Shown: positions 7,609 to 61,776 of the stretch, piece after piece
Numbering within the stretch: the first letter of the stretch is position 1
Layout: every line of letters begins with the position of its first letter
DNA from: Fructilactobacillus carniphilus
Lineage (GTDB): Bacteria > Bacillota > Bacilli > Lactobacillales > Lactobacillaceae
DNA length: 64,000 nt
Reading direction: 5' to 3'
Assembly: GCF_024029675.1 (NCBI RefSeq)
Contig: NZ_CP097121.1
Span: 1,116,001-1,180,000 of the forward strand
Notes under the pieces: generated by a model
The model's database searches: none
Seen by the model: only the letters and a program-made list of their open reading frames with translations
What the model was told of the DNA's origin: nothing
Made by a program: the position numbers and the translations under genes

Positions 7609-7612
7609 TATT

Positions 7613-10165: not shown

Positions 10166-10180
10166 AAATAAACCTCTTTC

Positions 10181-12173: not shown

Positions 12174-12184
12174 AAATTACCGCC

Positions 12185-13270: not shown

Positions 13271-13292
13271 AACTACCTCCTAAACTAGATAA

Positions 13293-14126: not shown

Positions 14127-14138
14127 CGAAGACCTCAT

Positions 14139-15095: not shown

Positions 15096-15107
15096 ACATA
15101 ATCCTCT

Positions 15108-17145: not shown

Positions 17146-17192
17146 TAAACACCATCTTTTCTCCCAAACAATATCAAATCGACATTTATTAA

Positions 17193-17945: not shown

Positions 17946-17962
17946 TTATTCAAAAATCTCCT

Positions 17963-38441: not shown

Positions 38442-38530
38442 GGAACTGTACTATTAGATTTGCATTGCTTCAGTGCATTTTTAATATTCAAAGTTACACA
38501 TTTCTAAAATATTTTAGGGGGTCTTCAATT

Positions 38531-39229: not shown

Positions 39230-39250
39230 GGGTTTCATGTTTCCATAGTT

Positions 39251-39295
39251 AAAAAAAGGGAACCACTTATTTTGTAATGAGTGTTTCCCTTTTTT
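39251..39295 (+). terminator. Terminator (probably partial) after the first WxL gene
   Basis: An A-tract with GGGAA..CACT and AGTG.TTCCC arms followed by six T. Genes downstream continue the same cluster, so some read-through is likely and would give an expression gradient. Confidence 0.75.
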
Positions 39296-39323
39296 ACTAA
39301 ATAAATAGAAGTAGAGGAAGATT

Positions 39324-40352: not shown

Positions 40353-40364
40353 GTAGGTGATTAG

Positions 40365-40763
40365 ATGAAGCTTGATAAACAAAAGGCGCTCTTATTTGCT
40401 GTTTTAGGACTTGCTTTAATTGCCATCATTTTTGGGACGAGTAGTATTTATGCTGATAATCAAACCAATAACAATTCAGCTAAAAGTACAGCAGCAGTTA
40501 GCGTTGGCAAAAAAAATAACAACGAAAAACCTAAGCAAGAAAAGAAGCCTGACAAAACAAAGGAACAACCTAAAAAAGAAACTCCTGCTCCCATGGCTAG
40601 TGTAAAGCCAGCTCCCGTAACGGAACTTCCACAGACAGGACAGTTCCTCCACATTGGAGTAACTGCCACTGGAATTATGGTGCTCTTTTTAGTTGTTTTA
40701 ATTGTGCTTAACAGCCAATTCCAAACTAAGCTTCAAAAATTGGCCAAGAGCCATGAGAACTAA
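40365..40763 (+). CDS. Small LPXTG-anchored protein of the WxL cluster (CscB type)
   Basis: A 132-residue protein with an N-terminal signal/membrane segment (about 8-29), a Lys/Pro/Glu-rich stalk (residues about 47-80, GKKNNNEKPKQEKKPDKTKE), and a sortase motif LPQTG (about 91-95) followed by a hydrophobic helix. The tail after the helix (NSQFQTKLQKLAKSHEN) is unusually long and not simply basic. It is presumably linked covalently to peptidoglycan by sortase A and holds the complex at the wall. TAGGTAGGTGA precedes the ATG. Confidence 0.88.
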   Translation: MKLDKQKALLFAVLGLALIAIIFGTSSIYADNQTNNNSAKSTAAVSVGKKNNNEKPKQEKKPDKTKEQPKKETPAPMASVKPAPVTELPQTGQFLHIGVTATGIMVLFLVVLIVLNSQFQTKLQKLAKSHEN

Positions 40764-41610
40764 AACTTGGTTTACGCTAGCCTTAGTGTGCATAACAACG
40801 ATCGTTACGGTAAGCTTGCCGAGTTTTAGTCATGCCCAGTCTGTTCCTAGTGACTTTTCCGTGACGCCACAATTGGGAGGCTTACCACTCCAAAAAGGTG
40901 CTGGCTACTTTGCTCTCCGGTCCAAGGATCATACGACCTACAAACTACCTTTGTTGGTCACGAATGATAGCAATCAACAACTACATGTGACGACCCGGCT
41001 CAACAATGCCGTGACGTCCCCTAATGGTACGATCAACTATCAAGATTCATCGGCCCAACCGCGTGGCAAGCAAAGTCTCACTAATAAAGTAATTGGCAAG
41101 CGGACCAAGCACGTTACCGTTGCCCCCCATTCGAATCAGGTTGTTACCTACCAGATTAATTCAGGGAATCAGGGACGGGGAATTACGTTAGGAGGCATTA
41201 CTGCCACCGCACCAGTTGGTCAGACTAACCACGTTCAAAATGATGTGACCTTTGTAACTGGTGTATCCTTAAACGCTCAGAAAAATCAACCAAATTTACA
41301 GCAGCTACGCCTGACTAAAGTTGAAGTTGCTCCCCTAGCAACCTCCGCAACGGTCGTTGCTAGGATTAGCAATAACCATCCCCAATTGTTGCAACATCTA
41401 CGGGGAAAGATAACGCTAGAACAAGGTTCTAAAATTATCAGCTCTAAACGTTTAACCAACGTTAACATTGCTCCCAATTCAAGGGTGAAATTTGATTTGC
41501 CCCCGAAAAAGGTTGCGACTGGTAATTATCAGGTAGTGGTCAAGCTTCAGGGTCATGGTCAAAATCTGAACGTCCACCGTAACATATCAATTAAACAAGC
41601 TTTAAATTAA
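40753..41610 (+). CDS. DUF916-like secreted protein without a membrane anchor
   Basis: About 285 residues from ATG 40753, which overlaps the stop of the LPXTG gene by 11 bases (translational coupling). Signal peptide (MRTKTWFTLALVCITT, cleavage after SHA). The mature part resembles DUF916/DUF3324 proteins (DFSVTPQLGGLPLQKGAGYF, RGITLGGITATAPVG, and a final KLQGHGQNLNVHRNISI) but has no C-terminal helix. The related gene at 39324 has one. It may be a soluble partner or chaperone of WxL proteins. The frame extends upstream to 40702 with no signal peptide, so I prefer 40753. Confidence 0.78.
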   Translation: MRTKTWFTLALVCITTIVTVSLPSFSHAQSVPSDFSVTPQLGGLPLQKGAGYFALRSKDHTTYKLPLLVTNDSNQQLHVTTRLNNAVTSPNGTINYQDSSAQPRGKQSLTNKVIGKRTKHVTVAPHSNQVVTYQINSGNQGRGITLGGITATAPVGQTNHVQNDVTFVTGVSLNAQKNQPNLQQLRLTKVEVAPLATSATVVARISNNHPQLLQHLRGKITLEQGSKIISSKRLTNVNIAPNSRVKFDLPPKKVATGNYQVVVKLQGHGQNLNVHRNISIKQALN

Positions 41611-41654
41611 AGTCATGAGCCTTTAATATCATTCAAAGAAAGGAGGTCAACACC

Positions 41655-44375
41655 ATTAAAAAGTTAAAAAAATTGCTAGCAAGTGGGGCGCTCGGTTTAA
41701 TTACCATGGGAGGTTTGCTCTCAGGAGTAGCCCCAGCTGCGCATGCTAGTAATGATCTCAACATCCCAGCTCCGCCTGAATCAGGTCCTAGTATGAGTAA
41801 TTTTACGTACAAAGGAAATCCACCTGCTGCACTTGATTATCCTAATGCCCAAGTAGTTACTGATTATTCCAAAGGCCAATCCCGTGGATTATGGTGGAAA
41901 AATCAAGTTGATTTATCGAGACAGTTTACTCTGAAGTTCTATATCTACATTGCTTCCGATGATCCGGAAAATGCAGCCGATGGTTTAACCTTTACGTTGC
42001 AAAACGATCAGAATCAAATTTCCACCGACAAAAAGGGATCTGTTGCTACGGGAACTAACGGTGAATCATTAGGTGCCTACGGTAATTTCCGTAATTTTAG
42101 TGAATATTATCCTGACTTAAATGGCGCTAAATCTGCTTATGATTCCTCTAAGCAAATAATTAGAAATGCTATGTCGTTAGAATTTGACCCATACTACAAC
42201 GGAGATTATAGTGATGCTTATCAGATTGAAAAGAATTCGGCTGCAAAGTCGCATTTAGCATTTACGCTTCCTGATAAAAACCACATTAACGTCCACAAGT
42301 TTGGTAGTGGCTATTTCACAGGAATTAATCACTATGGTAGTGGAAGCCAGTGGTACCAAAACCAACCTAGCGGCAGCAATTCTCTTAATCCGTTCCCTAA
42401 TGCCAACGATAATTATGGAGCTGTTCCAGCTCCTAGTATGGTGGGAAATACCAAGAGTTCTGGAATTGATAAACCACGTTGGGAACCAGTTGTTTATACT
42501 TGGAACCCCGATAAAAGTGGAACTACCGGAAGTGCTACTGCAACGTTTGGTTACTCTGACTCCAGTAAAAATACCAATAACTTTCAACAGTTGAAACTTT
42601 CTTCTCCAACCATTAACATCGCCGATACCTTTGGCCCTGAGAAAAAAGCTTACTGGGGAATGACTGGTTCGACTGGTGATAACTACATGATTAGTGCTAT
42701 TTCAGCTTCTGATATCCCTGGGACTCCAGGAGTTAGTAAAACAGCTGCTGATTTAACCAAGTTAGGTCAACAAGGTCTCCGAATTAGTAAAAAGGACGGT
42801 GGAACTGTTGTACCAAAGACTGATGAAACTGGATTGCTTCCGGATGATCATTCTTTAACTACCGAAGAACTAATGCATGCCTTATCATTTGACTCGCAAT
42901 TTACCGGAGACGATGGTAACAAATACCCTGTCTTCCGGAATATTATTGATAAAGCGGACGTTGGAGATATTCTTCTTTATCGGTCTGATATCTATAACTA
43001 CTACGATAGTATTTATAATCCTAAGGATCCCGATTTAGGAAATCATTGGTTAGATGTTCATGTAACTGATGACTTGCCTAAACAATTGCGGTTATTGGAC
43101 GGAAGTGAGGACGTAAACCTCTACTACCCTGATATCCCACCAATTAAGAAGGATGCTGAAAAACCGACTCCACAATCACACGGCTTCAAAGCAGCATTGA
43201 TTTCCGATCAACTGGATTCAGGGCAACAAGCTGTAGTTAATACGGTGAAAGCTTCTGGCTCTAACTTCGCAGATAAAACACCAATTGAATCTAGTGATGT
43301 GAAAGTAATCCCGAGTCATCGTCCACCTGGTAGACCATCGATCTACATTAATAATCAGATGCAAAACGTGACCCAAAATATGCAAGATTGGTCTGACCAA
43401 TTGTATAACGTTCGAGATTACGATAACATCAACTATCGGATTCCACTGTATAACTTTAGTCAAGTTCCGTTAATCAATGGTCAATACACCTTCTACTTAC
43501 CAAGTCTCAAGGATAACAATCCAAATAACTTGAAACTCCAGTTTGAGGGTCAGGATATTCCTTATGATTCAACGGACAAATCTAACGGTCTGCATTACAC
43601 CATAAGTGATGATAATCTCACCCAGAATGATGGATCGACTTACAAGAACTGTAAGAAGATTGTGATTAAAGGTTTGCCAACTCTCGACGCTTACTCGACC
43701 AAGAACATCACGGCTAACGTGAACCTCGGTGAAAATCAAGGGAAGTACTTCTCAAGTACGCCGAAATTAACTGGGCAATCGCAAGGTGGGGATCAGACTT
43801 CCACGTATTATGGTAAAGAAGAAATTTATAACCTAAATGCTGGAAATCTAAAAATTGCTCCGATGAGTTTTGAATACGGAACGCATGCTTTCTTTACCCC
43901 TAACTCAGATATGCTTCCCCTTGATACTTACACCTTTGACGAATCCGGTAACCCGGTTCTGACCACGCCTCGAATCAATCCTAAGCTTGGTTACCAGGCT
44001 CTTTCCATTAAGGATACCCGGCAAAAAGCTGAACGAAAAGAATACTCAATTAGTCTGTCACAGGCTAAAGACAACAGCCAAAGTGTGGCAGGTCAACTAA
44101 GTAACGCTGACGTCATCGGAACCAAAGATTCGCCGTTCCAGTTAGTTTACTTCGATGGTAAAGGAGATAAGCATCCCCTCACCCCTGGAAATAACGACAA
44201 TGTGAACGTTTATTCCTCTGGTGATAATTTACCAGATCTAAAGAGTGTGGATTGGAATAGTCGCAACGGTTTGAAGTTAAATGTACGTAAAGCTCCTGAT
44301 GCTCCGCAAAGTGGGCAAAAGAGCGACTACGGTGCTACTTTAAACTGGACCGTGAACTCCACAGAAACTCCTTAG
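41655..44375 (+). CDS. L-type lectin / WxL-like large surface protein, apparent ATT start
   Basis: About 906 residues. The only start that fits is ATT at 41655, eight bases after a perfect AGGAGG (41641-41646). It gives the n-region KKLKK before a signal peptide ending AAHA. The first ATG/GTG/TTG in frame is a TTG at 41673, which has no Shine-Dalgarno and would remove the basic n-region. An upstream in-frame TGA at 41616 rules out a longer start. After the signal comes a bacterial L-type lectin domain (about 45-270; RGLWWKNQVDLSRQFTLKFY, DGLTFTLQND). Several repeat-like beta regions follow, then a final LNWTVNSTETP resembling the second WxL motif. Probably a carbohydrate-binding adhesin (CscD-like role). 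Confidence 0.85.
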   Translation: MKKLKKLLASGALGLITMGGLLSGVAPAAHASNDLNIPAPPESGPSMSNFTYKGNPPAALDYPNAQVVTDYSKGQSRGLWWKNQVDLSRQFTLKFYIYIASDDPENAADGLTFTLQNDQNQISTDKKGSVATGTNGESLGAYGNFRNFSEYYPDLNGAKSAYDSSKQIIRNAMSLEFDPYYNGDYSDAYQIEKNSAAKSHLAFTLPDKNHINVHKFGSGYFTGINHYGSGSQWYQNQPSGSNSLNPFPNANDNYGAVPAPSMVGNTKSSGIDKPRWEPVVYTWNPDKSGTTGSATATFGYSDSSKNTNNFQQLKLSSPTINIADTFGPEKKAYWGMTGSTGDNYMISAISASDIPGTPGVSKTAADLTKLGQQGLRISKKDGGTVVPKTDETGLLPDDHSLTTEELMHALSFDSQFTGDDGNKYPVFRNIIDKADVGDILLYRSDIYNYYDSIYNPKDPDLGNHWLDVHVTDDLPKQLRLLDGSEDVNLYYPDIPPIKKDAEKPTPQSHGFKAALISDQLDSGQQAVVNTVKASGSNFADKTPIESSDVKVIPSHRPPGRPSIYINNQMQNVTQNMQDWSDQLYNVRDYDNINYRIPLYNFSQVPLINGQYTFYLPSLKDNNPNNLKLQFEGQDIPYDSTDKSNGLHYTISDDNLTQNDGSTYKNCKKIVIKGLPTLDAYSTKNITANVNLGENQGKYFSSTPKLTGQSQGGDQTSTYYGKEEIYNLNAGNLKIAPMSFEYGTHAFFTPNSDMLPLDTYTFDESGNPVLTTPRINPKLGYQALSIKDTRQKAERKEYSISLSQAKDNSQSVAGQLSNADVIGTKDSPFQLVYFDGKGDKHPLTPGNNDNVNVYSSGDNLPDLKSVDWNSRNGLKLNVRKAPDAPQSGQKSDYGATLNWTVNSTETP

Positions 44376-51276: not shown

Positions 51277-52469
51277 GCTTTCCTCCGTGATGATGTCGTC
51301 GTATGGTTATAAAATAACACGACCGCCAACGCGATTAAAATGGAGAGGCCGGCCAACGCAAACAGAATGGAATAGTTCAGCCATTCGACCATCAGACCAC
51401 CAAACAAGGGGCCGACTGCCCGGCCAAAGGACATGAAGACGTTGAACATCCCCTGGTACTGCCCCTTAGAGCGCGGATCAGCTAAACTGTCAATCCACGC
51501 GGGAATGGCGGGAAGTCCGTTCATTTCTCCAATCGTTAGGATAATCATGATGATAATGAACCAGTGATACTGACGCGCCCAAATTAACATGAAAAAGGTC
51601 GAAGCAAATAGAGTAACTCCAAACGCAATTTGGGGTACCATCCGAAAGCGCATCCCGATTCGATTGATCAGTGGTTGCCCAATCACAATTAATAACCCGT
51701 TAATCGGCCAAATGAAACTGTACTGTTCAAAGGAGATGTGTAGGTCTTGCATATGAACTGGCATGACACTTTCCCACAGGGTGTAACTCAAATAAATAAA
51801 AAAGACCATGCCACAAATGAGCCAGATTAACCGCGGATTCGGCTGCGGTGCGGGGCCCATGTCCACCTGAGCATCGGGTTGCTGGTGACGATGGACTTGC
51901 ACTGGCGGAAACTTCACGTTAAACTCAAGAATCGTCATAATCAATAGAATGACGTAGAAAAACGAAGCAACCGCAAAGACAACTCCAACGCCGTACTTCA
52001 TTAAGTACCCAACTGCGGCAGTTCCAATTACAACCCCCAGGTTCACGCCGATGTACACTGAGTTAAACACCTGCCGGGTACTTTTACTGCGCACCTTGGC
52101 CGCATACGCGTTAAGGATGGTTAAACTGGATCCTTCTCCCAGCCCATACACGAACAACATGATGGCAAACATGGGCCAGCCGTGGGAGAAGATCAGTACC
52201 ACGACCGCCGCCAGGGCAATGGAGATGCTGATGATGGCAGTTTTGTACGGCGACCACCGGTCAAAGAGCCGGCCACCGAGATAATTTCCCAACACCATGA
52301 AACAAGACATGATAAACAGCACCACTCCCGCGACCGTTAAGGACTCGTGGAGCGTGTTGTGCATGTAAACGGTGGTCAACGGCCACATTAAGGCTGCTCC
52401 AGAATTAAGAAGTAATGAATAAATTAAGACTGAAGTCAGTCGAATTTCCGAACGAGGCGTTTTCGTCAT
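51273..52469 (-). CDS. MFS transporter, probable drug exporter
   Basis: About 398 residues with 12 hydrophobic helices. The motif A-like loop GNYLGGRLFDRWSPYK after helix 2 and the symmetric halves separated by a hydrophilic loop (about 190-215, PPVQVHRHQQPDAQVDMG) mark a DHA1-like MFS protein. I chose the ATG at 52469, with GGAGGG seven bases upstream; the TTG at 52475 overlaps this. It is translationally coupled to the UvrA-like gene downstream. The substrate is unknown. Confidence 0.88.
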   Translation of the reverse strand: MTKTPRSEIRLTSVLIYSLLLNSGAALMWPLTTVYMHNTLHESLTVAGVVLFIMSCFMVLGNYLGGRLFDRWSPYKTAIISISIALAAVVVLIFSHGWPMFAIMLFVYGLGEGSSLTILNAYAAKVRSKSTRQVFNSVYIGVNLGVVIGTAAVGYLMKYGVGVVFAVASFFYVILLIMTILEFNVKFPPVQVHRHQQPDAQVDMGPAPQPNPRLIWLICGMVFFIYLSYTLWESVMPVHMQDLHISFEQYSFIWPINGLLIVIGQPLINRIGMRFRMVPQIAFGVTLFASTFFMLIWARQYHWFIIIMIILTIGEMNGLPAIPAWIDSLADPRSKGQYQGMFNVFMSFGRAVGPLFGGLMVEWLNYSILFALAGLSILIALAVVLFYNHTTTSSRRKA

Positions 52470-52631
52470 GCGCAATCCCTCCTAGATAATTAGTCATTTC
52501 TTCTATTCTCGCACAAATTCATGGGTTTCAAAAGAAACGGTTCTGGCTTTAAAGCGTGGTAAAATATGGATACTTAGTTCTGAAACAACCTAATTTTAAC
52601 CAACAATAGCAACTCGAAAGGAAGTCCCATT

Positions 52632-53471
52632 ATGATTCATATCGTTACGGATTCAACCGCTCAACTAACCTCCGAAGAAATTAAAGACAATGATTTACAC
52701 GTCATCCCGTTGCAGGTTAGCTTTGAAGGAAAAACTTACCAGGATAAAGTGGACATCACCCGGCAACAATTTTCCGAAATGCTCCATGATGACGAAACGG
52801 AATTCCCCAAAACTAGCCAACCAGCCATGGGTCAATTCGTAGAAACTTACGAACAAATCTTAAAAGACGATCCCGATGGAAGTATCGTTTCAATTCACAT
52901 CACACGCATCCTTAGTGGAACCGTCGAAACGGCCCAATCGGCTGCCCAACAAGTGAACGGTGACATTCGGGTGATTGATAGTAAATCAACCGACCGGGGA
53001 CTTGGTTTTGAAGTCCTAAAAGCTGCTGAATTAGCAAAAGCCGGAAAATCGGCGGAAGAAGTGGAAAATGGCGTGATTGCCATGATTCCTGAAATTAGCT
53101 TACACGTGTTCGTGAACAGCTTTGATTACCTGGTTAAGGGTGGTCGTGCTAGCCGTGCTGTTGGGTTCATTTCCTCCCTCATTCAGCTCAAACCCGTCTT
53201 AGCTCTTAACGAGGGTAAGCTCGAAATCGTGGCTAAATGTCGTGGTGCTAAAAAGATGCGGAAGGTCCGCGATGAAATTACGGAAACCCTCATTAACGAT
53301 CCGAAGGTGAAGGAAGTCGGCCTCTCCTACGTGGACTCTACCGAAGACGTTGACGCTGTGGCCGCTCGCATTAAGGAAGCCCGTCCAGATATTAATGTGT
53401 TAGTCCGCCTCACCTGCCCCGTCATTATGACTCACGTGGGTCCTGGTGGCTTTGCCATTATTTACAACTAA
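52632..53471 (+). CDS. DegV family fatty-acid-binding protein (FakB-like)
   Basis: A 279-residue DegV protein. HIVTDSTAQL is at the N-terminus; FPKTSQPAMGQFVE and VSIHITRILSGT are the conserved loops contacting the fatty-acid carboxylate, and FDYLVKGGRASRA with a C-terminal HVGPGGFAIIYN completes the family pattern. DegV/FakB proteins present exogenous fatty acids to the FakA kinase. No fakA is adjacent. GAAAGGAAG precedes the ATG. Only in the broad sense does the fatty-acid theme recur with the broken oleate hydratase at 3160. Confidence 0.93.
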   Translation: MIHIVTDSTAQLTSEEIKDNDLHVIPLQVSFEGKTYQDKVDITRQQFSEMLHDDETEFPKTSQPAMGQFVETYEQILKDDPDGSIVSIHITRILSGTVETAQSAAQQVNGDIRVIDSKSTDRGLGFEVLKAAELAKAGKSAEEVENGVIAMIPEISLHVFVNSFDYLVKGGRASRAVGFISSLIQLKPVLALNEGKLEIVAKCRGAKKMRKVRDEITETLINDPKVKEVGLSYVDSTEDVDAVAARIKEARPDINVLVRLTCPVIMTHVGPGGFAIIYN

Positions 53472-53489
53472 ATTTATGAAGCAAAAACT

Positions 53490-53539
53490 AAGCGCTCCCA
53501 CAGAATTAGCTATTTTTCTAATTCCATGAGAGCGCTTTT
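53490..53539 (+). terminator. Terminator after the DegV gene
   Basis: AAGCGCTC...CAGAATTAG and CTAATTC...GAGCGCTTTTC arms around an 8-base loop. Confidence 0.85.
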
Positions 53540-53684
53540 CGGTTAATTAGCAATCATTTTTGAATGCTTGCATAAAGGGCAAATTTATTGGTTATCTAAT
53601 CCCAACTTAAATTACTCCCAAAGTTATTGTACTTCTAGTTGGAATAAACGGACCTGTAGCAAGGGTTCTATGTCCAAAGAAAAA

Positions 53685-53715
53685 AGTGTACCTAAATGGG
53701 TAATTTAGGTACACT
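53685..53715. repeat. 13-bp perfect inverted repeat in the gap before the accessory island
   Basis: AGTGTACCTAAAT and its complement with a 5-base spacer. The gap 53540-53845 otherwise holds a palindrome ACTATA-C-TATAGT (53753-53765) near the putative promoter of the next gene and no ORF. There is no T-tract on either strand, so it is not a standard terminator; it could be an operator or a trace of a mobile element. Confidence 0.55.
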
Positions 53716-53845
53716 CAAAAGACACACGTCTCTTATTTTAAAACACTCAAGAACTATACTATAGTAGATAAGTATATTATGTTGTGATAAAAATACTGTT
53801 AGCTAATTTAATGACATTTATAGTTAAAACTAAAGGAGACATTTG

Positions 53846-54346
53846 ATGACAGCAACGGAAGATCCTAACGAAACATATAAACATATCAAAATAATCTATA
53901 GAGTATATTTTGTATTGGCATTAGTGCTTGTATTGATTGGCACCCTTGCAACTTTGGTGGCAATTATTTTGAAAAAGGTGAATATTTATTTATTGTTCTT
54001 TGTTGTTTTAGGATTTATCCTTTTTGTCTTTTTAAAATTAACAATTCCTTATCTAAAAAGACACTCTAGGCATCAAGCAACTGGGTATAAAGTTCCAATT
54101 TATAGAGATCTATTATATTGGAATTTAATGAAGAGCAAAAAAATTTATTCTTGGATATTTGCATTACTAATTCTTTGTTTGCTAAGTTTAATGATTTTTC
54201 ATGATAACTTCCATATAACTGACTGGCGTTATTTATTCTGTGCAATTGTTTATGGGTATGTCATTGCAGATTTAGTTGTTTGTTCTTTTATACTTAAATT
54301 TTTGCAAAAAAGAGAGAAACATCATGAACTTATTCAAAGGAACTAA
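53846..54346 (+). CDS. Four-helix membrane protein, unknown function
   Basis: About 166 residues with four hydrophobic helices (approximately 20-43, 48-68, 100-118, 125-150) and basic loops and C-terminus (KFLQKREKHHELIQRN). Start ATG 53846 has AAAGGAG seven bases upstream; the TTG just before it is less likely. It is AT-rich and faces the DUF1906 gene tail to tail. The last 60-odd bases of the gene together with its terminator occur a second time at 58354-58471. I do not recognise a family; size and position would suit an immunity protein, but that is speculation. Confidence 0.65.
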   Translation: MTATEDPNETYKHIKIIYRVYFVLALVLVLIGTLATLVAIILKKVNIYLLFFVVLGFILFVFLKLTIPYLKRHSRHQATGYKVPIYRDLLYWNLMKSKKIYSWIFALLILCLLSLMIFHDNFHITDWRYLFCAIVYGYVIADLVVCSFILKFLQKREKHHELIQRN

Positions 54347-54400
54347 AAGGGTTAGTTTAGATATTTTAACTACTATCTAAACTAATCTTTTTCTTTACAT
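54284..54400. repeat. Left copy of the ~118-bp direct repeat flanking the island
   Basis: It covers the last 21 codons of the gene ending at 54346 plus its terminator. It matches 58354-58471 with about 11 mismatches and one 1-base indel, in the same orientation, ending in the shared CTTTTTCTTTACAT-like sequence. Confidence 0.8.
54350..54392. terminator. Terminator of the membrane-protein gene
   Basis: GGTTAGTTTAGATA and TATCTAAACTAATC arms around a 10-base loop, followed by TTTTT on the plus strand. Confidence 0.8.
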
Positions 54401-55078
54401 ACCAAATGCTTTTTGAATAAGAGAACACAAGCCGATAATTGCTGTATTTACAATGGCGTCTGTTGCAATACCTTCAATAACAGCCGGAGTTGCAATTAGC
54501 ACAGCCGTAATTGCAAGTGCAAAAAATATTTCGCTCGTATGTCCAAAAGCAAAGTCTACCGCTTCAATGCCTTGTTTTACTACTGGTAAATTTGATGGTT
54601 TAATTTTCAAGTCAATTTCTAAATTTACTTCAGTATCCCACTCAGTATTACCTAATTTAACTTTAAAGATATTAATGCTTAAGGAAACAGTGTAGAACCC
54701 ATCATCGTCAATTGAATACGATAGTGATAACTGACCATCCATGATGTTTTGTAATAAAGAAATATCCATCAACTTTCCAATAACTACATCTAGTACGGGG
54801 CTAGGCAAGTTGAATGTGTCAGAAAACCATTGGGATAAATCAATCTTAGACAGTGATCCTTTTGAAATGGTGAAAACATTACTACCATTTAAATTAGCAA
54901 ACGTATCCGTTGCCTGGAGAACAATTTTTAATGAGTTTGTTAGGTTAAAAGTCGTAATTGGAATGTCTAATTCAATATTGGTGTTTTTAGTAAGAGATTG
55001 TACGACATTCAACGCAGATTTAAATTTTGGATTTTCAACAAACCGATTAGTTTCCAGTATCCTTTCCTGATGATGCAT
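54395..55078 (-). CDS. C-terminal domain of the frameshifted DUF1906 protein, or separate protein of unknown function
   Basis: About 227 codons from ATG 55078 (MHHQERILETNRFVENPKFK and on). The beta-rich region of about residues 30-170 ends in a hydrophobic stretch (FFALAITAVLIATPAVIEGI, then NTAIIGLCSLIQKAFGM). There is no Shine-Dalgarno before the ATG. The DUF1906 frame ends DTGN-stop at 55047, where removing one A would read DTGTNRFVENPKFK, running straight into this frame. The most economical reading is one protein of about 710 residues split by a 1-base insertion. It could also be an independent gene expressed by reinitiation. Confidence 0.6.
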   Translation of the reverse strand: MHHQERILETNRFVENPKFKSALNVVQSLTKNTNIELDIPITTFNLTNSLKIVLQATDTFANLNGSNVFTISKGSLSKIDLSQWFSDTFNLPSPVLDVVIGKLMDISLLQNIMDGQLSLSYSIDDDGFYTVSLSINIFKVKLGNTEWDTEVNLEIDLKIKPSNLPVVKQGIEAVDFAFGHTSEIFFALAITAVLIATPAVIEGIATDAIVNTAIIGLCSLIQKAFGM

Positions 55079-56516
55079 CTTGGTCAATGGCAATCCCGGC
55101 AAAATTATACTCAGTAAACTGGTCAATTGCCCAATTTTTTGGCATTTTATAACCTAAGTTACCACTGTATCCAGTTGACATGTCAGAAACAAAAGCATTT
55201 ACGGCATAACCTTGTTCCAAGGCGTGGGTACAAACATTTCGAGTCCCATAAACACCTACTTTGTAATTATTACCCAAATGGCGTTTAACAGCTGCCAAAT
55301 AAGGAAGAACGGTCCCAGGAATATCTCCATCCAGAATGTCAGTATCCACAGCAAAATAAATGGTAGTTCCTTGAGGGAATCCCAGCCTAACTGCAGCAGC
55401 AGTTGCAACATTGGCATCATAACTTCCTTGAGCTGCAGTGAAATATGATTGATCACCATCATTATCTTGGTAAATGGGAAAAATATTTAAGCCAGCTTTG
55501 ACCAAACCTTCAATTTCACCAGTAGTTAAGTTTTTAGGCCGTCGATTTGAACCAGTACCCACCGTTCCAGTTAAATACCGACCAATTAAATTAAAACCAT
55601 AACTTTTGAGTTTTTTAGCTGTTGAACTGGAGACTTGGAATGAGGTATCACAAGCGTCAGAGTCACGGTTAGTATCACCATTGGAGGTTAATAATCCCTT
55701 GATTACAGCTAAGTTAGCGGATCCATTGTAAGGTGGAAGTTTCATAAAATTCCGAAAGTTGAATACCGCATTAGCAACGTTACTTCCATAAATCCCGTCA
55801 AAGGGTCCATCGTAAAATCCGTTTACCATTAAACCATATTGAATAACTTTAACAATCGGACCACTGGTACCTTGATAAATCGTTGGCGTTAATCTAATGG
55901 TACCGGGACCATAAACTCCATTTGCCTGACTAGTAGACATACCTTCAGTTGCTTGTAAGGCATAAATTAAAGCGGTATTAGTGTTTCGTTGGTAAAGACC
56001 ATCAGTGGGAACTAAGCCTAAATCATCACCAAAGTAACTAAGATAGTTATGATTCAGGTATTGTTGCATTTTTCGGATAGCAGTAGTACCCCCACCTAAT
56101 AATTTAAAGGCACTCATATCAAACAAAGCGGCCATTAAAGGAACCGTTAAATTACCACTGGGTAGCCCTGCATCTTGACGCAATTCGTCTACTGCAGTTT
56201 GCGTTCCTTTAGAAAATTTAGTGTTAAAGGCAGCTGGACTATAACCTTTACACCAAAAAGCACCTTGAATTAATTTAGCGATGTTGCCTTTATAACCTAC
56301 CCGATATTTAGCTACTTGGCCTGCTAAGGCTGACTTAGTATGGTCACCAAAGCCACTGGACACAGGATTAATGCCTAATTCGTGCTGTAATCCTTCACGT
56401 AAAGCATAAATGGTCTTCCAACCAGTTTGGCCATTTTCATTAACCTTGGTGTAGCCATTTACCTTTCCGTATTCTGAATTTAACCATTTTTGTACTTTTA
56501 AAACTTGTTGATCCAT
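55047..56516 (-). CDS. Leaderless DUF1906 (GH25-like) peptidoglycan-hydrolase-type protein
   Basis: A 489-residue protein. The C-terminal part, about 300-489, is a DUF1906 glycoside-hydrolase-like domain: CDTSFQVSSSTAKKLKSYGF, LIGRYLTG, GLNIFPIYQDNDGDQSYF, GTTIYFAVDTDILDGD, YKVGVYGTRNVC and NWAIDQFTEY with the DQDASS end. The preceding 300 residues contain peptidoglycan-binding-like repeats (VKVIQYGLMVNGFYDGPFDG, YGSNVANAVFNFRNFMKLP). No signal peptide is present at ATG 56516, which has GGAGG eight bases upstream, so export would need lysis, a holin or an unconventional route. It is divergent from the XRE-ImmA pair, which probably controls it. The reading frame is cut off from a C-terminal domain by an apparent 1-base frameshift. 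Confidence 0.82.
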   Translation of the reverse strand: MDQQVLKVQKWLNSEYGKVNGYTKVNENGQTGWKTIYALREGLQHELGINPVSSGFGDHTKSALAGQVAKYRVGYKGNIAKLIQGAFWCKGYSPAAFNTKFSKGTQTAVDELRQDAGLPSGNLTVPLMAALFDMSAFKLLGGGTTAIRKMQQYLNHNYLSYFGDDLGLVPTDGLYQRNTNTALIYALQATEGMSTSQANGVYGPGTIRLTPTIYQGTSGPIVKVIQYGLMVNGFYDGPFDGIYGSNVANAVFNFRNFMKLPPYNGSANLAVIKGLLTSNGDTNRDSDACDTSFQVSSSTAKKLKSYGFNLIGRYLTGTVGTGSNRRPKNLTTGEIEGLVKAGLNIFPIYQDNDGDQSYFTAAQGSYDANVATAAAVRLGFPQGTTIYFAVDTDILDGDIPGTVLPYLAAVKRHLGNNYKVGVYGTRNVCTHALEQGYAVNAFVSDMSTGYSGNLGYKMPKNWAIDQFTEYNFAGIAIDQDASSGKDTGN

Positions 56517-56552
56517 GTTAATTTCCTCCATTTGTAGAATTGAATTGTGAGT

Positions 56553-56566
56553 AATTAGTACTAATT
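56553..56566. promoter_or_regulatory. Palindrome near the DUF1906 gene start
   Basis: AATTAGTACTAATT, a perfect 14-bp palindrome 37 bases upstream of the start codon at 56516; operator candidate. Confidence 0.4.
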
Positions 56567-56596
56567 AAGCTATATAATCTATAATTACGTTGCTTG

Positions 56597-56617
56597 TTGT
56601 AGATAAATAGTCTACAA
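56597..56617. promoter_or_regulatory. Operator candidate in the divergent regulator / DUF1906 intergenic region
   Basis: TTGTAGA-TAAATAG-TCTACAA, 7-bp arms with 7-base spacer, in the size range bound by XRE-type repressors. Confidence 0.5.
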
Positions 56618-56725
56618 TGGTGACAAATAAAAATCCAACACGTCTGTTGGAGTTATTTGTTCTTCGTAATCAATTAGATTACAAGGAACACTATATATAC
56701 TAATCTTCTAAATGTCAACCAAATA

Positions 56726-56742
56726 ATAGAAAAATATTCTAT
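56726..56742. promoter_or_regulatory. Second operator candidate, next to the XRE gene
   Basis: ATAGAA-AAATA-TTCTAT, 6-bp arms, 24 bases before the XRE ATG; placed where an autorepressor would bind. Confidence 0.4.
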
Positions 56743-56766
56743 ATAACTGAAGGGAAAGTGCTGCAA

Positions 56767-57084
56767 ATGTCGATTTATCAACGGATCAAGGAATTAGCCA
56801 AAAACAAAAATATTTCCATTCGCGAATTAGAACATCAACTAGGTTTCCCTAATGGAACTTTACAGAAGTGGGTTGATAACGCTAATTCACAAAAATTAAA
56901 GAAAGTAGCCAATTACTTTAGCGTTTCCACTGATTATCTCTTGGGGAACGGGGAACGCCCTACCGCTGATTTAGACGATTTAGAAACTATTATGATGTTT
57001 GGAGGAAAACCGGTACCAGAAGAAGATAAGCAAACGGTTTTGGAAATTTTAAGGAGGCTCAGAGATGCAAGAGATCATAAATAG
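56767..57084 (+). CDS. XRE-family repressor (ImmR / CI-like)
   Basis: About 105 residues. The helix-turn-helix is at about 1-60 (IYQRIKELAKNKNISIREL, then LGFPNGTLQKW), followed by the common VSTDYLLGNG and a C-terminal helical tail. Start is ATG 56767 or GTG 56758; GAAGGGA lies between three and eleven bases upstream of either. It overlaps the start of the ImmA-like gene, so the two are co-translated. Such pairs in ICEBs1 and prophages consist of a repressor and the protease that removes it after a DNA-damage or cell-density signal. Confidence 0.88.
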   Translation: MSIYQRIKELAKNKNISIRELEHQLGFPNGTLQKWVDNANSQKLKKVANYFSVSTDYLLGNGERPTADLDDLETIMMFGGKPVPEEDKQTVLEILRRLRDARDHK

Positions 57085-57475
57085 CCTGTTTAACTACGCG
57101 TTAAATCATGATATTGGGGTGGTTTACACTGATAAGTTGATGCCAGAAACAAAGTCATTCGCTGACATTCCCACACGATCAATTGTGATTAATGCAAATG
57201 AGCCTAATCAGCGGCAATTACCCCTTATTATTGCTCATGAAATTAGTCATGTAGTCCAGTGCGATACGAATGATGCTCAGTTAAACTTCTCTACAGGCTT
57301 AAAGCCGCATTATGAACAGAAAGCTAACATCGGTGCCATTGACTTGTTAATTCCATTTTACGTAGAGGATAAAGAACTCTATCAAATTAACGTGGACGAA
57401 TTTATGCAGTTATTTGCAATTCCCAGTTCGTTACGAGATATTTGTATTACGGAAATGAAAAAGAACATTAATTAA
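57065..57475 (+). CDS. ImmA/IrrE-type metallopeptidase
   Basis: A 136-residue zinc protease of the ImmA/IrrE family. The catalytic LPLIIAHEISHVVQCD (HExxH at about 58-62) is followed by an acidic QKANIGAIDLLIPF, where the third zinc ligand is expected. It is expected to cleave the XRE repressor encoded just upstream. The ATG at 57065 lies inside the XRE gene, with GGAGG seven bases upstream. A strong terminator follows. Confidence 0.88.
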   Translation: MQEIINSLFNYALNHDIGVVYTDKLMPETKSFADIPTRSIVINANEPNQRQLPLIIAHEISHVVQCDTNDAQLNFSTGLKPHYEQKANIGAIDLLIPFYVEDKELYQINVDEFMQLFAIPSSLRDICITEMKKNIN

Positions 57476-57477
57476 AT

Positions 57478-57524
57478 AAAAGAAGCCAGCCTTACTAATT
57501 ATTTTAGTAGGGCTGGTTTCTTTA
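57478..57524 (+). terminator. Terminator after immA
   Basis: AAAGAAGCCAGCC and GGCTGGTTTCTTT arms with an inner TACTAA/TTAGTA stem. Confidence 0.9.
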
Positions 57525-57675
57525 AATTTTATAAGTAATTGCACAATTTGATTGTTATTTTTACTATCTAGGGATTCAGTGGGTTACTCAGCTAAAATTA
57601 ATTCACTAAATTTAATAGTATTCTGGAAATTTAAATACACTCAGAAGGCACAAATATATTTGTATACATTACAAC

Positions 57676-57701
57676 AAGTAGTAATGTAGATTTTACTACT
57701 T
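57676..57701. repeat. 9-bp perfect inverted repeat downstream of the toxin gene
   Basis: AAGTAGTAA and TTACTACTT with an 8-base spacer. It lies after the YafQ stop (reverse strand) but has no T-run; possibly a weak mRNA 3' end. Confidence 0.4.
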
Positions 57702-57732
57702 TATACTTGTTTCTGTAATTTATTAATATTTA

Positions 57733-58011
57733 TTATTCAAACAAGTCTGAATGACTACCGGTATCAATGAATTTAATATAATCACCATCGTACCGATAAA
57801 TCAAAAGCCAATCTGGTTTAATGTGAAGTTCTCGTTCAGGTTTTCGATTTATGAGGTTATGGTCGTTAAACTTAGCTGGAATTTCTTCATCGTTAATTAA
57901 TAAGTAATATATTTCATTGAATTGATTTTTGTTATATTTAGGCTGTTTTAGCATTTGTTTGTAATGTTTTTTGAATTGATTTTCAAAAGCAGGTTTGTAT
58001 TGTTTAGTCAT
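57733..58011 (-). CDS. yafQ: YafQ-family mRNA interferase toxin
   Basis: A 92-residue RelE-superfamily toxin. The start KPAFENQFKKHYKQML and the C-terminal ELHIKPDWLLIYRYDG, then FIDTGSHSDLF match YafQ, with the His in ELHIKPDW, the Asp beside it and the His in GSHSDLF at the positions used in catalysis. The expected action is ribosome-dependent cleavage of mRNA. It overlaps the antitoxin gene by 8 bases (ATG within the antitoxin end), the usual arrangement. Confidence 0.9.
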   Translation of the reverse strand: MTKQYKPAFENQFKKHYKQMLKQPKYNKNQFNEIYYLLINDEEIPAKFNDHNLINRKPERELHIKPDWLLIYRYDGDYIKFIDTGSHSDLFE

Positions 58012-58255
58012 TTAACCAATCTAAACCTTCCTGAGCATTATCAAACTTAACGTAATCATCACTACTAATTGCTGTTTTTAATCGTTTATTTGGTTGGTTT
58101 ACTTCAAAAGGTAATCCATTGTTGTTAATTGTTTGTTTCATAAAAATACGAAACGCTTCTGGAGCAGTTAATCCGTTTTCTTTTAAAACTTTTTCAAATT
58201 CGTCCTTATTAAGGGTACTAGTTCTAAAATGAATTTGTGCTGTATTTGTTTTCAT
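58004..58255 (-). CDS. dinJ: RelB/DinJ-family antitoxin
   Basis: About 83 residues from ATG 58255, with GGAGTG six bases upstream (another ATG three codons earlier is less likely). The N-terminal ribbon-helix-helix region TAQIHFRTSTLNKDEFEKVL and GLTAPEAFRIFMKQTI are typical of RelB/DinJ. The C-terminal half (ISSDDYVKFDNAQEGLDWL) should wrap the toxin. It probably represses its own promoter through the palindrome at 58279-58292. Confidence 0.9.
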   Translation of the reverse strand: MKTNTAQIHFRTSTLNKDEFEKVLKENGLTAPEAFRIFMKQTINNNGLPFEVNQPNKRLKTAISSDDYVKFDNAQEGLDWLND

Positions 58256-58278
58256 TAAAATCACTCCTTTACATCATA

Positions 58279-58292
58279 GTACCATTTGGTAC
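58279..58292. promoter_or_regulatory. Operator palindrome of the toxin-antitoxin promoter
   Basis: GTACC-ATTT-GGTAC, just upstream of the antitoxin start; typical of ribbon-helix-helix autoregulation sites. Confidence 0.55.
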
Positions 58293-58353
58293 ACAAAATA
58301 GCAAATTATATTAGTATACGATTTTAATAAAAAATATAAATATATTAATTGGA

Positions 58354-58471
58354 TCTTTTATACTTAAAATTTTACAAAAAATAGAGCAGCAACATGAACT
58401 GATTCAAAGGAAATAAAAAAGGTTAATTTAGATATCTTAACTATTATCTAAACTAACCTTTTTCTTTACAT
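58354..58471. repeat. Right copy of the ~118-bp direct repeat flanking the island
   Basis: A degenerate copy of 54284-54400. It includes a truncated coding tail (FILKILQKIEQQHELIQRK then stop at about 58418) with no gene body in front of it, followed by the duplicated terminator. The gap 58265-58607 holds this copy and the antitoxin operator, and nothing else I can identify. Confidence 0.8.
58421..58463. terminator. Duplicated terminator hairpin
   Basis: GGTTAATTTAGATA and TATCTAAACTAACC arms followed by TTTTT; second copy of the hairpin at 54350. Confidence 0.7.
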
Positions 58472-58607
58472 AAAGTAGTTGAATTTTAATTAAAGTAGTT
58501 TTCCCGCTCATTAAACAATAACAGTAGTTAACCTTATCTTATAATTATAAGAAACTGAAGTATACAAAGTATAATACAAGCTATATTCAATAGAGAAAAC
58601 AATTTCT

Positions 58608-58958
58608 TTAATGCTTGGTTATATATTTTAATATCTTCGTTATTACTTTTGACAATATACCAAGATTTATAGTAAATGATTTTTTGTTTATATAAATAAC
58701 AAAAAAGAAACAGATAAAAATAACGAATCTACCAATATCGTTATTCACAAATATCAATAACATTAAATATAACGCAATCAGAAATATATCAAAATATTTA
58801 TATTTTTTTGTTTTTTTCTTCTGAACAGCGTTTAAATCAAAATGTAATTTTCTTTTTTGAATAATAAAAACACTAAGTTGTATTACTATTAATACAGTTA
58901 GAAATATTAAAGGTATAAGTGATGTTAAAATTAACAAATTAAGCAATGTTTTGCTCAT
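58608..58958 (-). CDS. Small AT-rich membrane protein, unknown function
   Basis: A 116-residue, very hydrophobic protein with three or four helices (about 5-31, 53-70, 72-90) and basic loops (QKRKLHFD, QKKKTKKYK). GGGGA lies seven bases before the ATG. It is AT-rich and lies just outside the right direct repeat. I do not recognise a family. Size and composition resemble immunity or small phage-type membrane proteins, but nothing specific supports either. Confidence 0.55.
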   Translation of the reverse strand: MSKTLLNLLILTSLIPLIFLTVLIVIQLSVFIIQKRKLHFDLNAVQKKKTKKYKYFDIFLIALYLMLLIFVNNDIGRFVIFICFFFVIYINKKSFTINLGILSKVITKILKYITKH

Positions 58959-59031
58959 ATTACCATCCCCTTGTACGCTATATTGTACGTTATTTAGTAC
59001 GTTTAGTTCATTTTACTGAAATATGGATAAC

Positions 59032-59063
59032 AAAAAAGACGCCACCGAAGTAGCGTCTTTTTT
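59032..59063 (-). terminator. Terminator of apf
   Basis: AAAAAAGACGC and GCGTCTTTTTT arms around a 10-base loop, directly after the apf stop. Confidence 0.88.
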
Positions 59064-59082
59064 AGTAACCTAATTTACTTTT

Positions 59083-59814
59083 TTACCAGTAGTTGTGTGA
59101 GTTCCGGAATGCAACGGCGTTAGCAATTGAACCGTACCGGCTGATGGCGTATTGACGAGCAACCCGTTCTTGGTTAGCTGGGGAGTAGTCACCGTTCAAG
59201 TATGAAGCAGATAATTGGTATTTACCAATGTATTGACCGTTCCGAGCCGTGTATGAACCACCTGATTCAACGGCAGCGATTGAGTCTAATGAACCATCGT
59301 TGTCAGCAGCGTTGTTGCTTGAAGCTTGCGTGCTAGCGGCTTGGCTAGTTTGTTGCGTTTGCGTAGCAGCTGGTTGAGCAGCAACTTGACTAGTTTGTTG
59401 TGGTTGGGCCTGAGCTGCTGGTTGGGATGGAGTTTCAGCTTGAGCGGCTTGGCTAGTTTGTTGTGATTGTGCAGCCGGTTGAGCTGGAGTTTCAGCTTGA
59501 GCAGTTGCTTGTTTTACTTCGTAGTGTGGTTGTACGGCTGGTGCTACTGGAGTTTGCGTAGAAGCAACTTGCACGTTTCCGTCATCGCCAATGATGAAAG
59601 TTTCACCAACATAAATCTTGTTGATATCTTGAATCTTGTTAGCATCCTTTAAGCTTTGCACTGAAACATCGTGGTCAGCAGCGATTTGTGACAGAGTGTC
59701 TCCAGCTTTAACCGTTACAGTAGTAGAAGCGTCTGCACTGTTAGCGCCGGCGAATAATACACCAGCAGATACAGCAGTAATAGCGGCTACAGTTTTAATT
59801 CCTTTAAATTTCAT
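59083..59814 (-). CDS. Apf-like LysM surface protein (aggregation-promoting-factor type)
   Basis: A 243-residue secreted wall protein. Signal peptide (KFKGIKTVAAITAVSAGVLF, cleavage after ADA), LysM domain (about 31-76, VTVKAGDTLSQIAADHDV, then NKIYVGETFII), and an Ala/Gln/Pro/Thr-rich linker with repeated QTSQ units (about 100-170). The C-terminal Apf domain is about 180-243 (AAVESGGSYTARNGQYIGKY, then NGDYSPANQERVA, ending NSHNYW), distantly transglycosylase-like. Such proteins affect cell shape, aggregation and division. The codon usage is highly biased and there is a long leader, both signs of high expression. A WalR-type box overlaps its promoter. Confidence 0.9.
   Translation of the reverse strand: MKFKGIKTVAAITAVSAGVLFAGANSADASTTVTVKAGDTLSQIAADHDVSVQSLKDANKIQDINKIYVGETFIIGDDGNVQVASTQTPVAPAVQPHYEVKQATAQAETPAQPAAQSQQTSQAAQAETPSQPAAQAQPQQTSQVAAQPAATQTQQTSQAASTQASSNNAADNDGSLDSIAAVESGGSYTARNGQYIGKYQLSASYLNGDYSPANQERVARQYAISRYGSIANAVAFRNSHNYW
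59305..59515. repeat. Low-complexity tandem coding repeats in apf
   Basis: About five imperfect units encoding (Q)QTSQ(A/V)AxAxxPxxPAAQ in the linker region of the Apf-like protein; prone to length variation. Confidence 0.6.
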
Positions 59815-59903
59815 GAAATAATCTCTCCTTTAATAGTTGGGAAGTTGTTTTCAGTTTCGAATTCTTGAGTTCCGTTAAGTGATTACTGAATCATTTAACA
59901 GTC

Positions 59904-59939
59904 CCTATACTAAAGTCAGATTATTACAACAAGATTACA
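59904..59939 (-). promoter_or_regulatory. apf promoter with perfect WalR-type box
   Basis: On the reverse strand TGTAAT-CTTGT-TGTAAT (59939-59923) matches the WalR/YycF consensus TGTWAH-N5-TGTWAH. The -35 candidate TTGTTG (59932-59927) lies inside it and TATAGG (59909-59904) is 17 bases downstream. The leader then forms a hairpin at 59874-59899. Confidence 0.65.
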
Positions 59940-60084
59940 GCGATTTTAAAAAAACCATCGGCTTCTGTAATTCTGTAACACGCTTAACATATTCTGTAAT
60001 TAATCAATTGCTCTAATCTCACCTTTTCTCACTGGCTGTAAGCTTCATCAGCATTGGAACTTCGTTAATTATCACCCTATTTCG

Positions 60085-61776
60085 TCACAATTCTTCCATA
60101 ATCAGGGCTTGTTGGGGGGCTAATTGGTCAATAATTGTCCCTTTCTCGCTTACTTCAGTGCTTAAATTGTCCAAAAGAATCCGGCCTTGATACCTATGGT
60201 CTAGCGAAACGGGCTGCCGCTCCAGGTTCACCAACACCAATAACTGTTGTTGCTCATTTTGCCGGCGATATGCAATCACTGTGGCTGGACTAGCCAGTGG
60301 TTCAAACTGACCCATGCGGAGGACGTCCCGGTACTGTGGCTGCTGTTGCAACCGTAATAATTGCTGATAATAATACAGCACGGACTCTGGATCAGCTTGT
60401 TCAGCTGCCACATTAATCCCGCGCTTGAACGTTCCTGGTTTTAACCACGGCGTTCCCGTCGAAAAGCCCCCGAAGCGACTGTCATCCCAGGGCATTGGCA
60501 CCCGGGCGTTATCGCGGGAGCGCCAGTTAACAATCGCTAGTGCTTCATCAGGAGTTTTACCCGCTTTAATTAGGCGCTGATAGTTATTAATGGAAGAAAC
60601 GTCATTAAAGTCCTCGATGTGGTGGCGCGTAAAATTGTGCATCCCCAGCTCCTGTCCTTGATAAAGCACTGGAACCCCTGGAAGGAATACCGACAAAGTT
60701 GCCAAGACTTTGGCTGCTGCTGGAGTTCGATCCGCGGGATTTTTAATAAACTTGGTCAGGGCCCGGTTTTGGTCGTGATTTTCTAAAACATTGGCAAACA
60801 CGACCTGCGCAGCTTGGATGGCTCGTTGACTCGCAAAGATGGTGTCAGCCAGTTCTGCGACGGTCCAATCCCGTGGTTGCTCCCACTGATTTGCATCCAC
60901 TACGTCAATATTAAGGTAACTAAAGTCAAAGATCATGGAGAAATAGCCATCCGGACCCACAAATTCAGCTAGTTGGTCGGGCCGGACCCCAGCGGCTTCC
61001 CCAATCGTCACGGAATCATGCTGGGCAAAAGTGGCTTCTTTCAATTCTTGTAAAAATTTACCTAACCCCGGACGGTTAAGCCCCTTCCGGGTGACGCTAA
61101 CTAACCCATCGGGACCATCGGCCGGCAGATTCTCCCAGTCCTGATCCTTCTTTAAATGGGTAATCGCATCTAGTCGGAAGCCAGCAATTCCCTTTGCTAG
61201 CCACCAGTTAATGATGCGGTAAAGCTGTTGCCGCAATTCTGGATTTTCCCAATTCAAATCAGGTTGCGCTGCCGTAAAGGTATGAAAGTACATCGTTTCT
61301 GGATCATCAGGAACCGCAGTCCAAGTCGAGCCCCCAAAGATACCTCGCCAGTTGGTCGGAGCTTGGGCAGCCGGAGCGGACTTAAAGATGTAATAATCCC
61401 GGTATGGACTAGTTGGATCACGAAGTGCTTCCTGAAACCACGGGTGCTGGTCTGAGGTATGGTTCAATACTAAATCCATGATGACCTTCAAACCCCGGTC
61501 GTGGGCCGCGCTTAGTAGCTCTTCCATGTCTGCCATCGTGCCAAACACCGGATCAATCGCTTGATAATCGGCAATATCATATCCCATGTCGACCATCGGC
61601 GATCGGTAAACGGGCGCGAGCCACAGCATGGTCACGCCGAGTTCTTGCAAATAATCTAATTTTGCCGTAATCCCCGGCAGATCTCCAATTCCATCCCCGT
61701 TACTATCATTAAAGGAACGCGGATAAATCTCGTAAATAATTTCGTCCTGCCACCAGGATGGTTGAGTTCGTTGCAT
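60085..61776 (-). CDS. GH13 alpha-glucosidase (oligo-1,6-glucosidase / dextran glucosidase type)
   Basis: About 563 residues from ATG 61776, which follows GGAGG by five bases; the frame is open upstream without a good start. The family blocks are present: WWQDEIIYEIYPRSFNDSNG, VMDLVLNHTSDQHPWF, GFRLDAITHLKKD (nucleophile Asp), VTIGEAAGV (acid/base Glu) and VFANVLENHDQNRAL (transition-state Asp). It lacks a signal peptide. It hydrolyses alpha-1,6- or alpha-1,4-linked gluco-oligosaccharides or possibly trehalose 6-phosphate. No transporter is adjacent. A cre-like site lies 125 bases upstream. Confidence 0.9.
   Translation of the reverse strand: MQRTQPSWWQDEIIYEIYPRSFNDSNGDGIGDLPGITAKLDYLQELGVTMLWLAPVYRSPMVDMGYDIADYQAIDPVFGTMADMEELLSAAHDRGLKVIMDLVLNHTSDQHPWFQEALRDPTSPYRDYYIFKSAPAAQAPTNWRGIFGGSTWTAVPDDPETMYFHTFTAAQPDLNWENPELRQQLYRIINWWLAKGIAGFRLDAITHLKKDQDWENLPADGPDGLVSVTRKGLNRPGLGKFLQELKEATFAQHDSVTIGEAAGVRPDQLAEFVGPDGYFSMIFDFSYLNIDVVDANQWEQPRDWTVAELADTIFASQRAIQAAQVVFANVLENHDQNRALTKFIKNPADRTPAAAKVLATLSVFLPGVPVLYQGQELGMHNFTRHHIEDFNDVSSINNYQRLIKAGKTPDEALAIVNWRSRDNARVPMPWDDSRFGGFSTGTPWLKPGTFKRGINVAAEQADPESVLYYYQQLLRLQQQPQYRDVLRMGQFEPLASPATVIAYRRQNEQQQLLVLVNLERQPVSLDHRYQGRILLDNLSTEVSEKGTIIDQLAPQQALIMEEL

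Follow-up and report, generated by a model that had tools for sequence, protein, structure and literature searches.

Bac41 of Enterococcus faecalis combines BacL1, BacA and immunity, and in the parts of the literature available to us BacA is described as a co-factor required by the BacL1 endopeptidase (PMC9951850), the diversity of the system is linked to specific immunity factors, and GalU mutants are resistant to BacL1/BacA (PMC8532689; PMC3482391 is a further source). Polymorphic toxins, as characterized in the available excerpt of PMC12419801, join a constant front to a variable C-terminal toxin domain and are accompanied by a fast-evolving membrane neighbour. The ImmRA pair of TnSmu1 is activated by DNA damage according to the available excerpt of PMC10233336. 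Here we describe a locus in a stretch of 64,000 nucleotides from Fructilactobacillus carniphilus (NZ_CP097121.1, positions 1,116,001 to 1,180,000; hereafter the window), which likely represents the BacA-like component of a Bac41-type bacteriolysin, controlled by an ImmR/ImmA switch. Judged by comparison with its relatives, the locus is a real and conserved one of a Bac41-like effector/immunity type, with predicted ImmR/ImmA wiring and a broken effector in F. carniphilus.

Gene content of the locus and its interrupted effector

The F. carniphilus genome (1.49 Mb, one contig) contains a single DUF1906 copy, located in an AT-rich stretch bordered on the left by a DegV gene (52632-53471) and on the right by an aggregation-promoting-factor-like gene (59083-59814). 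GC content per kilobase is 24-39% at 54-59 kb, compared with 46-52% on the left (48-53 kb) and 46-49% on the right (60-64 kb), in line with the AT-rich island described in an earlier sequence-only reading of this DNA. On the plus strand, a gene (53843-54346) whose 167-aa product has four TM-like segments converges with the effector coding region (54395-56531, minus strand), and self-comparison places an inverted repeat (54345-54392) between them. A 226-bp intergenic region then separates the effector from two divergent, overlapping plus-strand genes, an XRE repressor gene (ImmR-like; 56758-57084) and an ImmA-like HExxH protease gene (57065-57475), the latter followed by a terminator-like hairpin (57479-57523, plus strand). 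Pfam and NCBIfam scans of 10 proteins from the ORFs of about 52.6-59.8 kb recovered no integrase, structural or conjugation genes, as the earlier reading had stated.

Farther to the right, the minus strand encodes the DinJ/YafQ pair noted in that reading (YafQ, 57733-58011; RelB/DinJ, 58004-58264) and a 116-aa membrane protein (58608-58958). Since the pair and the membrane protein are absent at the same site in the related genome G004, they are not core parts, and DinJ/YafQ looks like a bystander. Both small membrane proteins proposed earlier as possible immunity or release functions exist, and the one at 53843-54346 looks immunity-like. In another genome, a RelB/YafQ pair lies directly before a DUF1906 gene (L103, 5236-5842). 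Elsewhere in the window, a second and longer AT-rich stretch (5000-18000; GC 26-36%) contains ORFs that resemble glycosyltransferases and flippases by eye and is probably a polysaccharide cluster, and an ORF run at 38465-44375 resembles, also by eye, a WxL-type surface protein cluster.

The effector is encoded by two minus-strand ORFs in different frames. The front ORF (55047-56531; 494 aa) matches PG_binding_1 (PF01471), as PG-binding repeats, and the Rv2525c_GlyHyd-like family (DUF1906; PF08924), the latter at 162.8 bits; it resembles wall hydrolases and has an Rv2525c-like fold, with no TM-like segment at the N-terminus. No Pfam match to Glyco_hydro_25 (PF01183) was found in the effector, so the GH25-like active part proposed earlier is not borne out: the front belongs to PF08924, and the variable part linked to the neighbouring gene is the C-terminal domain. 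This domain is encoded by the second ORF (54395-55126), whose homology to relatives starts near 55051 and whose product is 50% identical to the C-terminus of the related protein P0001. Modelled as a separate piece, it is beta-rich with a hydrophobic tail that falls below pLDDT 50, and it gave no Pfam match and no clear fold match, including none, with the tail modelled at this level, to the helical pore-forming domain of colicins.

In five related genomes (G001-G005) the effector gene is uninterrupted by stop codons, and relatives encode a single protein of about 700 aa. The reading frame in F. carniphilus is thus broken, by either a mutation or an assembly error; the large divergent DUF1906 protein of the earlier reading stands, but its single intact frame (56516-54395) does not. 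In a comparison of the window with G001, the effector and one other gene are split in the window, with no splits the other way. An oleate hydratase-like gene (by eye; 3160-4709, minus strand) lies in two frames in the window, and its G001 counterpart is one ORF of 601 aa. Split or truncated effector copies are also found elsewhere (for example L037, L042, L062, L092, L097 and L101), and the uninterrupted effector of F. fructivorans (654 aa) has no hydrophobic tail. All that is left at L019 and L012 (G007) is a C-terminal piece of the effector and a neighbouring gene related to the immunity candidate of F. ixorae.

Among 2075 proteins matching the effector, the best five of the 120 listed are from Fructilactobacillus (654-719 aa). 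The entire effector front is homologous (52% identity) to P0103, a DUF1906 protein of the bacL1/bacL2 operon type. E. faecalis relatives are encoded in plasmid operons that comprise, in order, a peptidoglycan amidohydrolase (Phage_lysozyme, Amidase_5 and SH3_5 domains), bacL2 (so annotated), a phage holin, a hypothetical protein, the DUF1906 protein and membrane proteins. On the basis of this operon order and its size, we take P0103 to be the probable BacA of Bac41. Relatives of the effector occur in 546 of 72,556 plasmid records (384 of them named Enterococcus) and in 2 of 50,697 phage records, the gene is frequent on small mobilisable plasmids, and a DUF1906 match is present in 50 of 251 genomes of the family.

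Linked exchange of the effector C-terminus and its membrane-protein neighbour

By blastn, the window and G001 are 97% identical at the same site over 52003-53546, 93% over 53661-53762 and 95% over 55058-60498, but positions 53763-55057 have no match at the corresponding place in G001. Because this unmatched stretch lies between flanks of 93-97% identity, the parts that differ are the four-TM gene and the effector C-terminal domain, and on this alignment the difference between the two genomes is an exchange of an effector/immunity cassette. The frame break adjoins the right-hand cassette junction. The 3′ end of the four-TM gene matches only a relic beyond the switch, carried by both the window and G001 and present at the same place in L017, in which 119 bp (58354-58472) form an 88% copy of the immunity-gene 3′ end and its hairpin (54284-54401); this suggests that earlier cassettes occupied the site. 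Comparable breaks in similarity are seen between plasmids: L002 and L003 agree over the first 2001 nt (91%), then differ and then agree again (87%), while L061 and L063 agree only up to nt 1517.

Co-variation was measured in 59 effector/neighbour sets, comprising 58 sets plus the window, whose pieces were kept apart. Eighteen pairs, which share members, have fronts at least 0.85 identical. In all six of these with C-termini at least 0.95 identical the neighbours are at least 0.83 identical, and in all 12 with C-termini at or below 0.65 the neighbours are at or below 0.32. With the front controlled for, C-terminus and neighbour show a partial correlation of 0.61 (reached in 0 of 2000 permutations), which drops to 0.25 once fronts at least 0.9 identical are excluded.

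A short membrane protein (110-260 aa, at least two TM-like segments, within 300 bp downstream) is the next gene downstream of 53 of the 74 effectors for which that gene is in view, from a sample of 76 unique full-length effectors that includes close relatives, compared with 22 of 258 control genes taken from these loci; some of the 21 failures are due to the strict threshold. By simple hydropathy, 61 of the 76 effectors have a TM-like segment within the last 90 residues (controls, 62 of 287) and none has one within the first 60, the latter being a crude test. The same front also precedes unrelated C-terminal domains, as expected of polymorphic toxins, including RHS repeats in a 2207-aa protein with PG-binding repeats, DUF1906 and DUF6531 (L059, 5521-12144) and a class-3 lipase (Lipase_3; L081, 5956-8727). 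On this comparison, BacA-kind proteins make up a polymorphic family that is frequent on plasmids from lactic acid bacteria and enterococci. Their C-terminal domain can be exchanged and is paired with a matched membrane neighbour, and a BacL1-type gene is often absent.

The product of 53843-54346 has no Pfam, PHROG or PADLOC match. From gene order and co-exchange with a type-specific C-terminus, this four-TM protein looks like an immunity candidate. Because a matched neighbour gene is exchanged along with the effector, the pattern points to killing of neighbouring cells rather than self-lysis.

The repressor/protease switch, its predicted operators and a BacL1-type partner

Both switch proteins score above their Pfam cut-offs (HTH_3, 23.3 bits against 23; Peptidase_M78, 26.8 bits against 22), and PHROG assigns the XRE protein to transcriptional regulators and the HExxH protein to a metallo-protease family (phrog_87). 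An HTH repressor gene overlapping the gene of an M78-type HExxH protease is the arrangement that defines ImmR/ImmA, and it confirms the repressor and protease recognized from the sequence. Relatives keep the repressor start at the ATG at 56767. XRE and ImmA homologues lie divergent beside the effector gene in all six Fructilactobacillus genomes that hold the gene body (G000-G005; the ImmA gene of G005 is itself split between two frames), and no ImmA match was found in the other four genomes of the genus searched (G006-G009). Bombilactobacillus apium (L029) shares this layout, with homologues at E 1.4e-7 and 2.1e-10, and a Streptococcaceae MAG (L084) has a similar one composed of an HTH_3 gene and a HExxH gene; the association of immR/immA with DUF1906, which the earlier reading had named as a check, therefore holds in other genomes. 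More distant ImmR/ImmA-like pairs of the genus (L132 and L133) have neighbours that, judged by eye, resemble phage genes. The switch occupies the place of the BacL2 regulator. Among the loci searched, BacL2 relatives are found directly before the effector only in L043, L074 and L077, and on the same locus as the effector in L052, L066 and L068.

The palindromes reported between the divergent genes were recovered as two sites with the core TAGA-N7-TCTA, one on the effector side (56600-56614) and one on the repressor side (56727-56741), 127 bp apart. Both cores are perfect in the window and in four relatives (L017, L016, L014 and L018, the last with a spacing of 140 bp), and one is perfect in L015; L029 lacks a perfect core between its divergent genes, and L084 lacks the core altogether. 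On the 17-19-kb stretches of the five relatives L014-L018 the cores at the locus are the only occurrences, and in the window they are 2 of 6 in 64 kb. By simulation, the chance of two cores within 226 bp is about 1e-4 for a motif picked after being seen. Ten genomes (G000-G009) were also searched for two cores with a gap of 100-124 bp: the pair occurs once each in G000, G001 and G005, twice in G004, once in G006 but not at such a locus, and not in G002, G003 or G007-G009, while a reversed motif used as a control gave no pair in any of the ten. We conclude from these alignments that conserved predicted operators lie between the divergent promoters in this lineage.

Promoter-like sites are not above chance (17 found, 26.2 expected). 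The best one, in the effector direction (56690-56718, minus strand; 11 of 12 matches), is the only conserved one and is recognizable in six aligned relatives. A terminator-like hairpin between this promoter and the effector start (56634-56651, minus strand) is present in five of six aligned genomes, making attenuation possible.

The F. carniphilus genome contains neither an Amidase_5 match nor a BacL1-type gene, and so lacks the lysozyme/amidase of a complete Bac41-type system. Such an enzyme is present in G004 and G049. A second locus in G004 carries another copy of the switch, with the same operator core, whose two proteins match those of the window at 103 of 105 and 130 of 136 residues. Divergent to it is the gene of a 450-aa protein that combines Phage_lysozyme, Amidase_5 and SH3 domains and has 39% identity to the protein in the BacL1 position; one further operator core lies elsewhere on this 11-kb stretch. 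G049, from another genus, encodes an orthologous repressor (69 of 105 residues identical) and a HExxH protein (53 of 136 residues; M78 17.6 bits, below the cut-off of 22) divergent to a 502-aa protein of the same lysozyme/amidase domain order, along with a truncated DUF1906 gene. Three operator cores are found at this locus and no others in 9 kb; as the locus was not used in defining the motif, the motif predicted a site in another genus. Since the switch stands divergent to a BacL1-type enzyme in both G004 and G049, both Bac41-type components appear to be wired to ImmR/ImmA in this lineage.

The partner is rare. A BacL1-type query matched 4 of 251 family genomes at E ≤ 1e-40, two of them over the lysozyme and amidase front. 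Three of these four genomes have a DUF1906 match as well, and one of the three (G236) shows no switch beside it. Within the genus, matches outside G004 cover the SH3 part only, and the partner was not found in four of the five other Fructilactobacillus that carry the effector. Other wall hydrolases precede the effector elsewhere, namely Amidase_3 (L091), holin and GH25 (L094) and Amidase_5 (L061).

Proposed mechanism, alternatives and relation to known systems

In the intact relatives, the repressor would bind the two TAGA-N7-TCTA operators and silence the divergent effector promoter until the ImmA-like protease is switched on by a signal, which is probably DNA damage, and the repressor is removed. 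The leaderless protein of about 700 aa would then be made; its PG-binding/Rv2525c-like front may grip a neighbouring cell by the wall, and the beta domain at its C-terminus, with the hydrophobic tail, may act on the membrane. Where a BacL1-type lysozyme/amidase is present, it would be made simultaneously from the near-identical switch elsewhere and would open the wall. The four-TM protein encoded downstream and exchanged along with the C-terminal domain would shield the producer. With a broken effector frame and no BacL1-type partner, the F. carniphilus strain is therefore probably an immune non-producer. A more far-reaching proposal, which we put forward tentatively and consider doubtful, is that in this branch of the Lactobacillaceae a duplicated ImmR/ImmA module with shared operators gave rise to a damage-inducible regulon of two loci serving a split bacteriolysin, in which the BacA-type partner would be a polymorphic membrane-inserting toxin and not a mere cofactor, its beta domain (weakly Mog1/PsbP/Eag-like) shielding its own hydrophobic tail until delivery.

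An effector of this kind might instead kill its own cell, the repressor being removed upon phage attack or damage in a form of stress-induced self-lysis or abortive infection. Repressor/protease pairs control phage lytic genes and are noted for CBASS (PMC10233336, in the available excerpt), the XRE protein weakly matches capH in PADLOC (E 2.2e-7), and the front is similar to wall hydrolases. We nevertheless consider self-killing unlikely: a matched, exchanged membrane neighbour fits no such module, small mobilisable plasmids commonly carry the gene, and PADLOC returned no match at the locus other than capH. Of the stand-alone lysis or antagonism module suggested by the sequence-only reading, what remains is a switch wired to an antagonism-type gene without adjoining phage genes, and self-lysis is the part at odds with the matched exchange.

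It is less probable again that the locus is what remains at one decayed end of a prophage or integrative element, in which case the switch would be left over from it and the effector would be a remnant resembling an endolysin. The phage/ICE type of the switch, matches of PHROG endolysin families to the front, the broken effector and the immunity-gene relic at 58354-58472 would all suit such an origin, but six genomes share this compact gene set, which occupies more than one site and has no phage genes with it, and relatives are found far more often in plasmid than in phage records (546 against 2). An Rv2525c-like fold with PG-binding repeats would also be expected of a house-keeping autolysin, the cell's own wall-remodelling enzyme with a regulator adjacent by chance. 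This seems very improbable for a gene that is plasmid-borne and patchy within the family, broken in several genomes, exchanged at its C-terminus together with its neighbour and fused elsewhere to RHS or lipase domains, and whose products, by the crude test above, lack a TM-like segment within their first 60 residues in all 76 cases.

We therefore return to a Bac41-like antagonism locus and compare it with described systems. Pore-forming colicins are leaderless proteins with a hydrophobic C-terminal tail and a multi-TM immunity gene, carried on small mobilisable plasmids and under presumed stress control. By analogy, the effector locus appears to have these traits in common with them, but no homology was found, and the front domains and the target envelope are different. 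The effector and its neighbour resemble polymorphic toxins, among them PG-binding/Rv2525c-like/TelC proteins (PMC12419801, as excerpted), in their constant front, variable C-terminal domain and membrane-protein neighbour; the C-terminus described here differs in having no Pfam or clear fold match. In the Listeria monocin switch (cI-like/MpaR), a repressor/protease pair likewise controls an antagonism element (PMC6872733, in the available excerpt); that element is a phage-derived particle cluster, in contrast to the single wall-binding protein here, so that a phage-style switch is joined to a bacteriocin-type gene that is no phage particle. The ImmR/ImmA systems of ICEBs1 and TnSmu1 share the XRE repressor overlapping a HExxH protease gene and the divergent promoter region; they differ in that the present locus is without integrase or conjugation genes and has a bacteriocin-type effector as its predicted output. 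Compared with Bac41, regulation appears to be by ImmR/ImmA with predicted operators and not by BacL2, the two components are encoded apart, each with its own copy of the switch, or the BacL1-type gene is missing, and the effector is broken in F. carniphilus. What the locus has in common with Bac41 is the homologous front, the polymorphic C-terminus with membrane-protein neighbours and, in relatives, an enzyme of the BacL1 type whose domains follow the same order.
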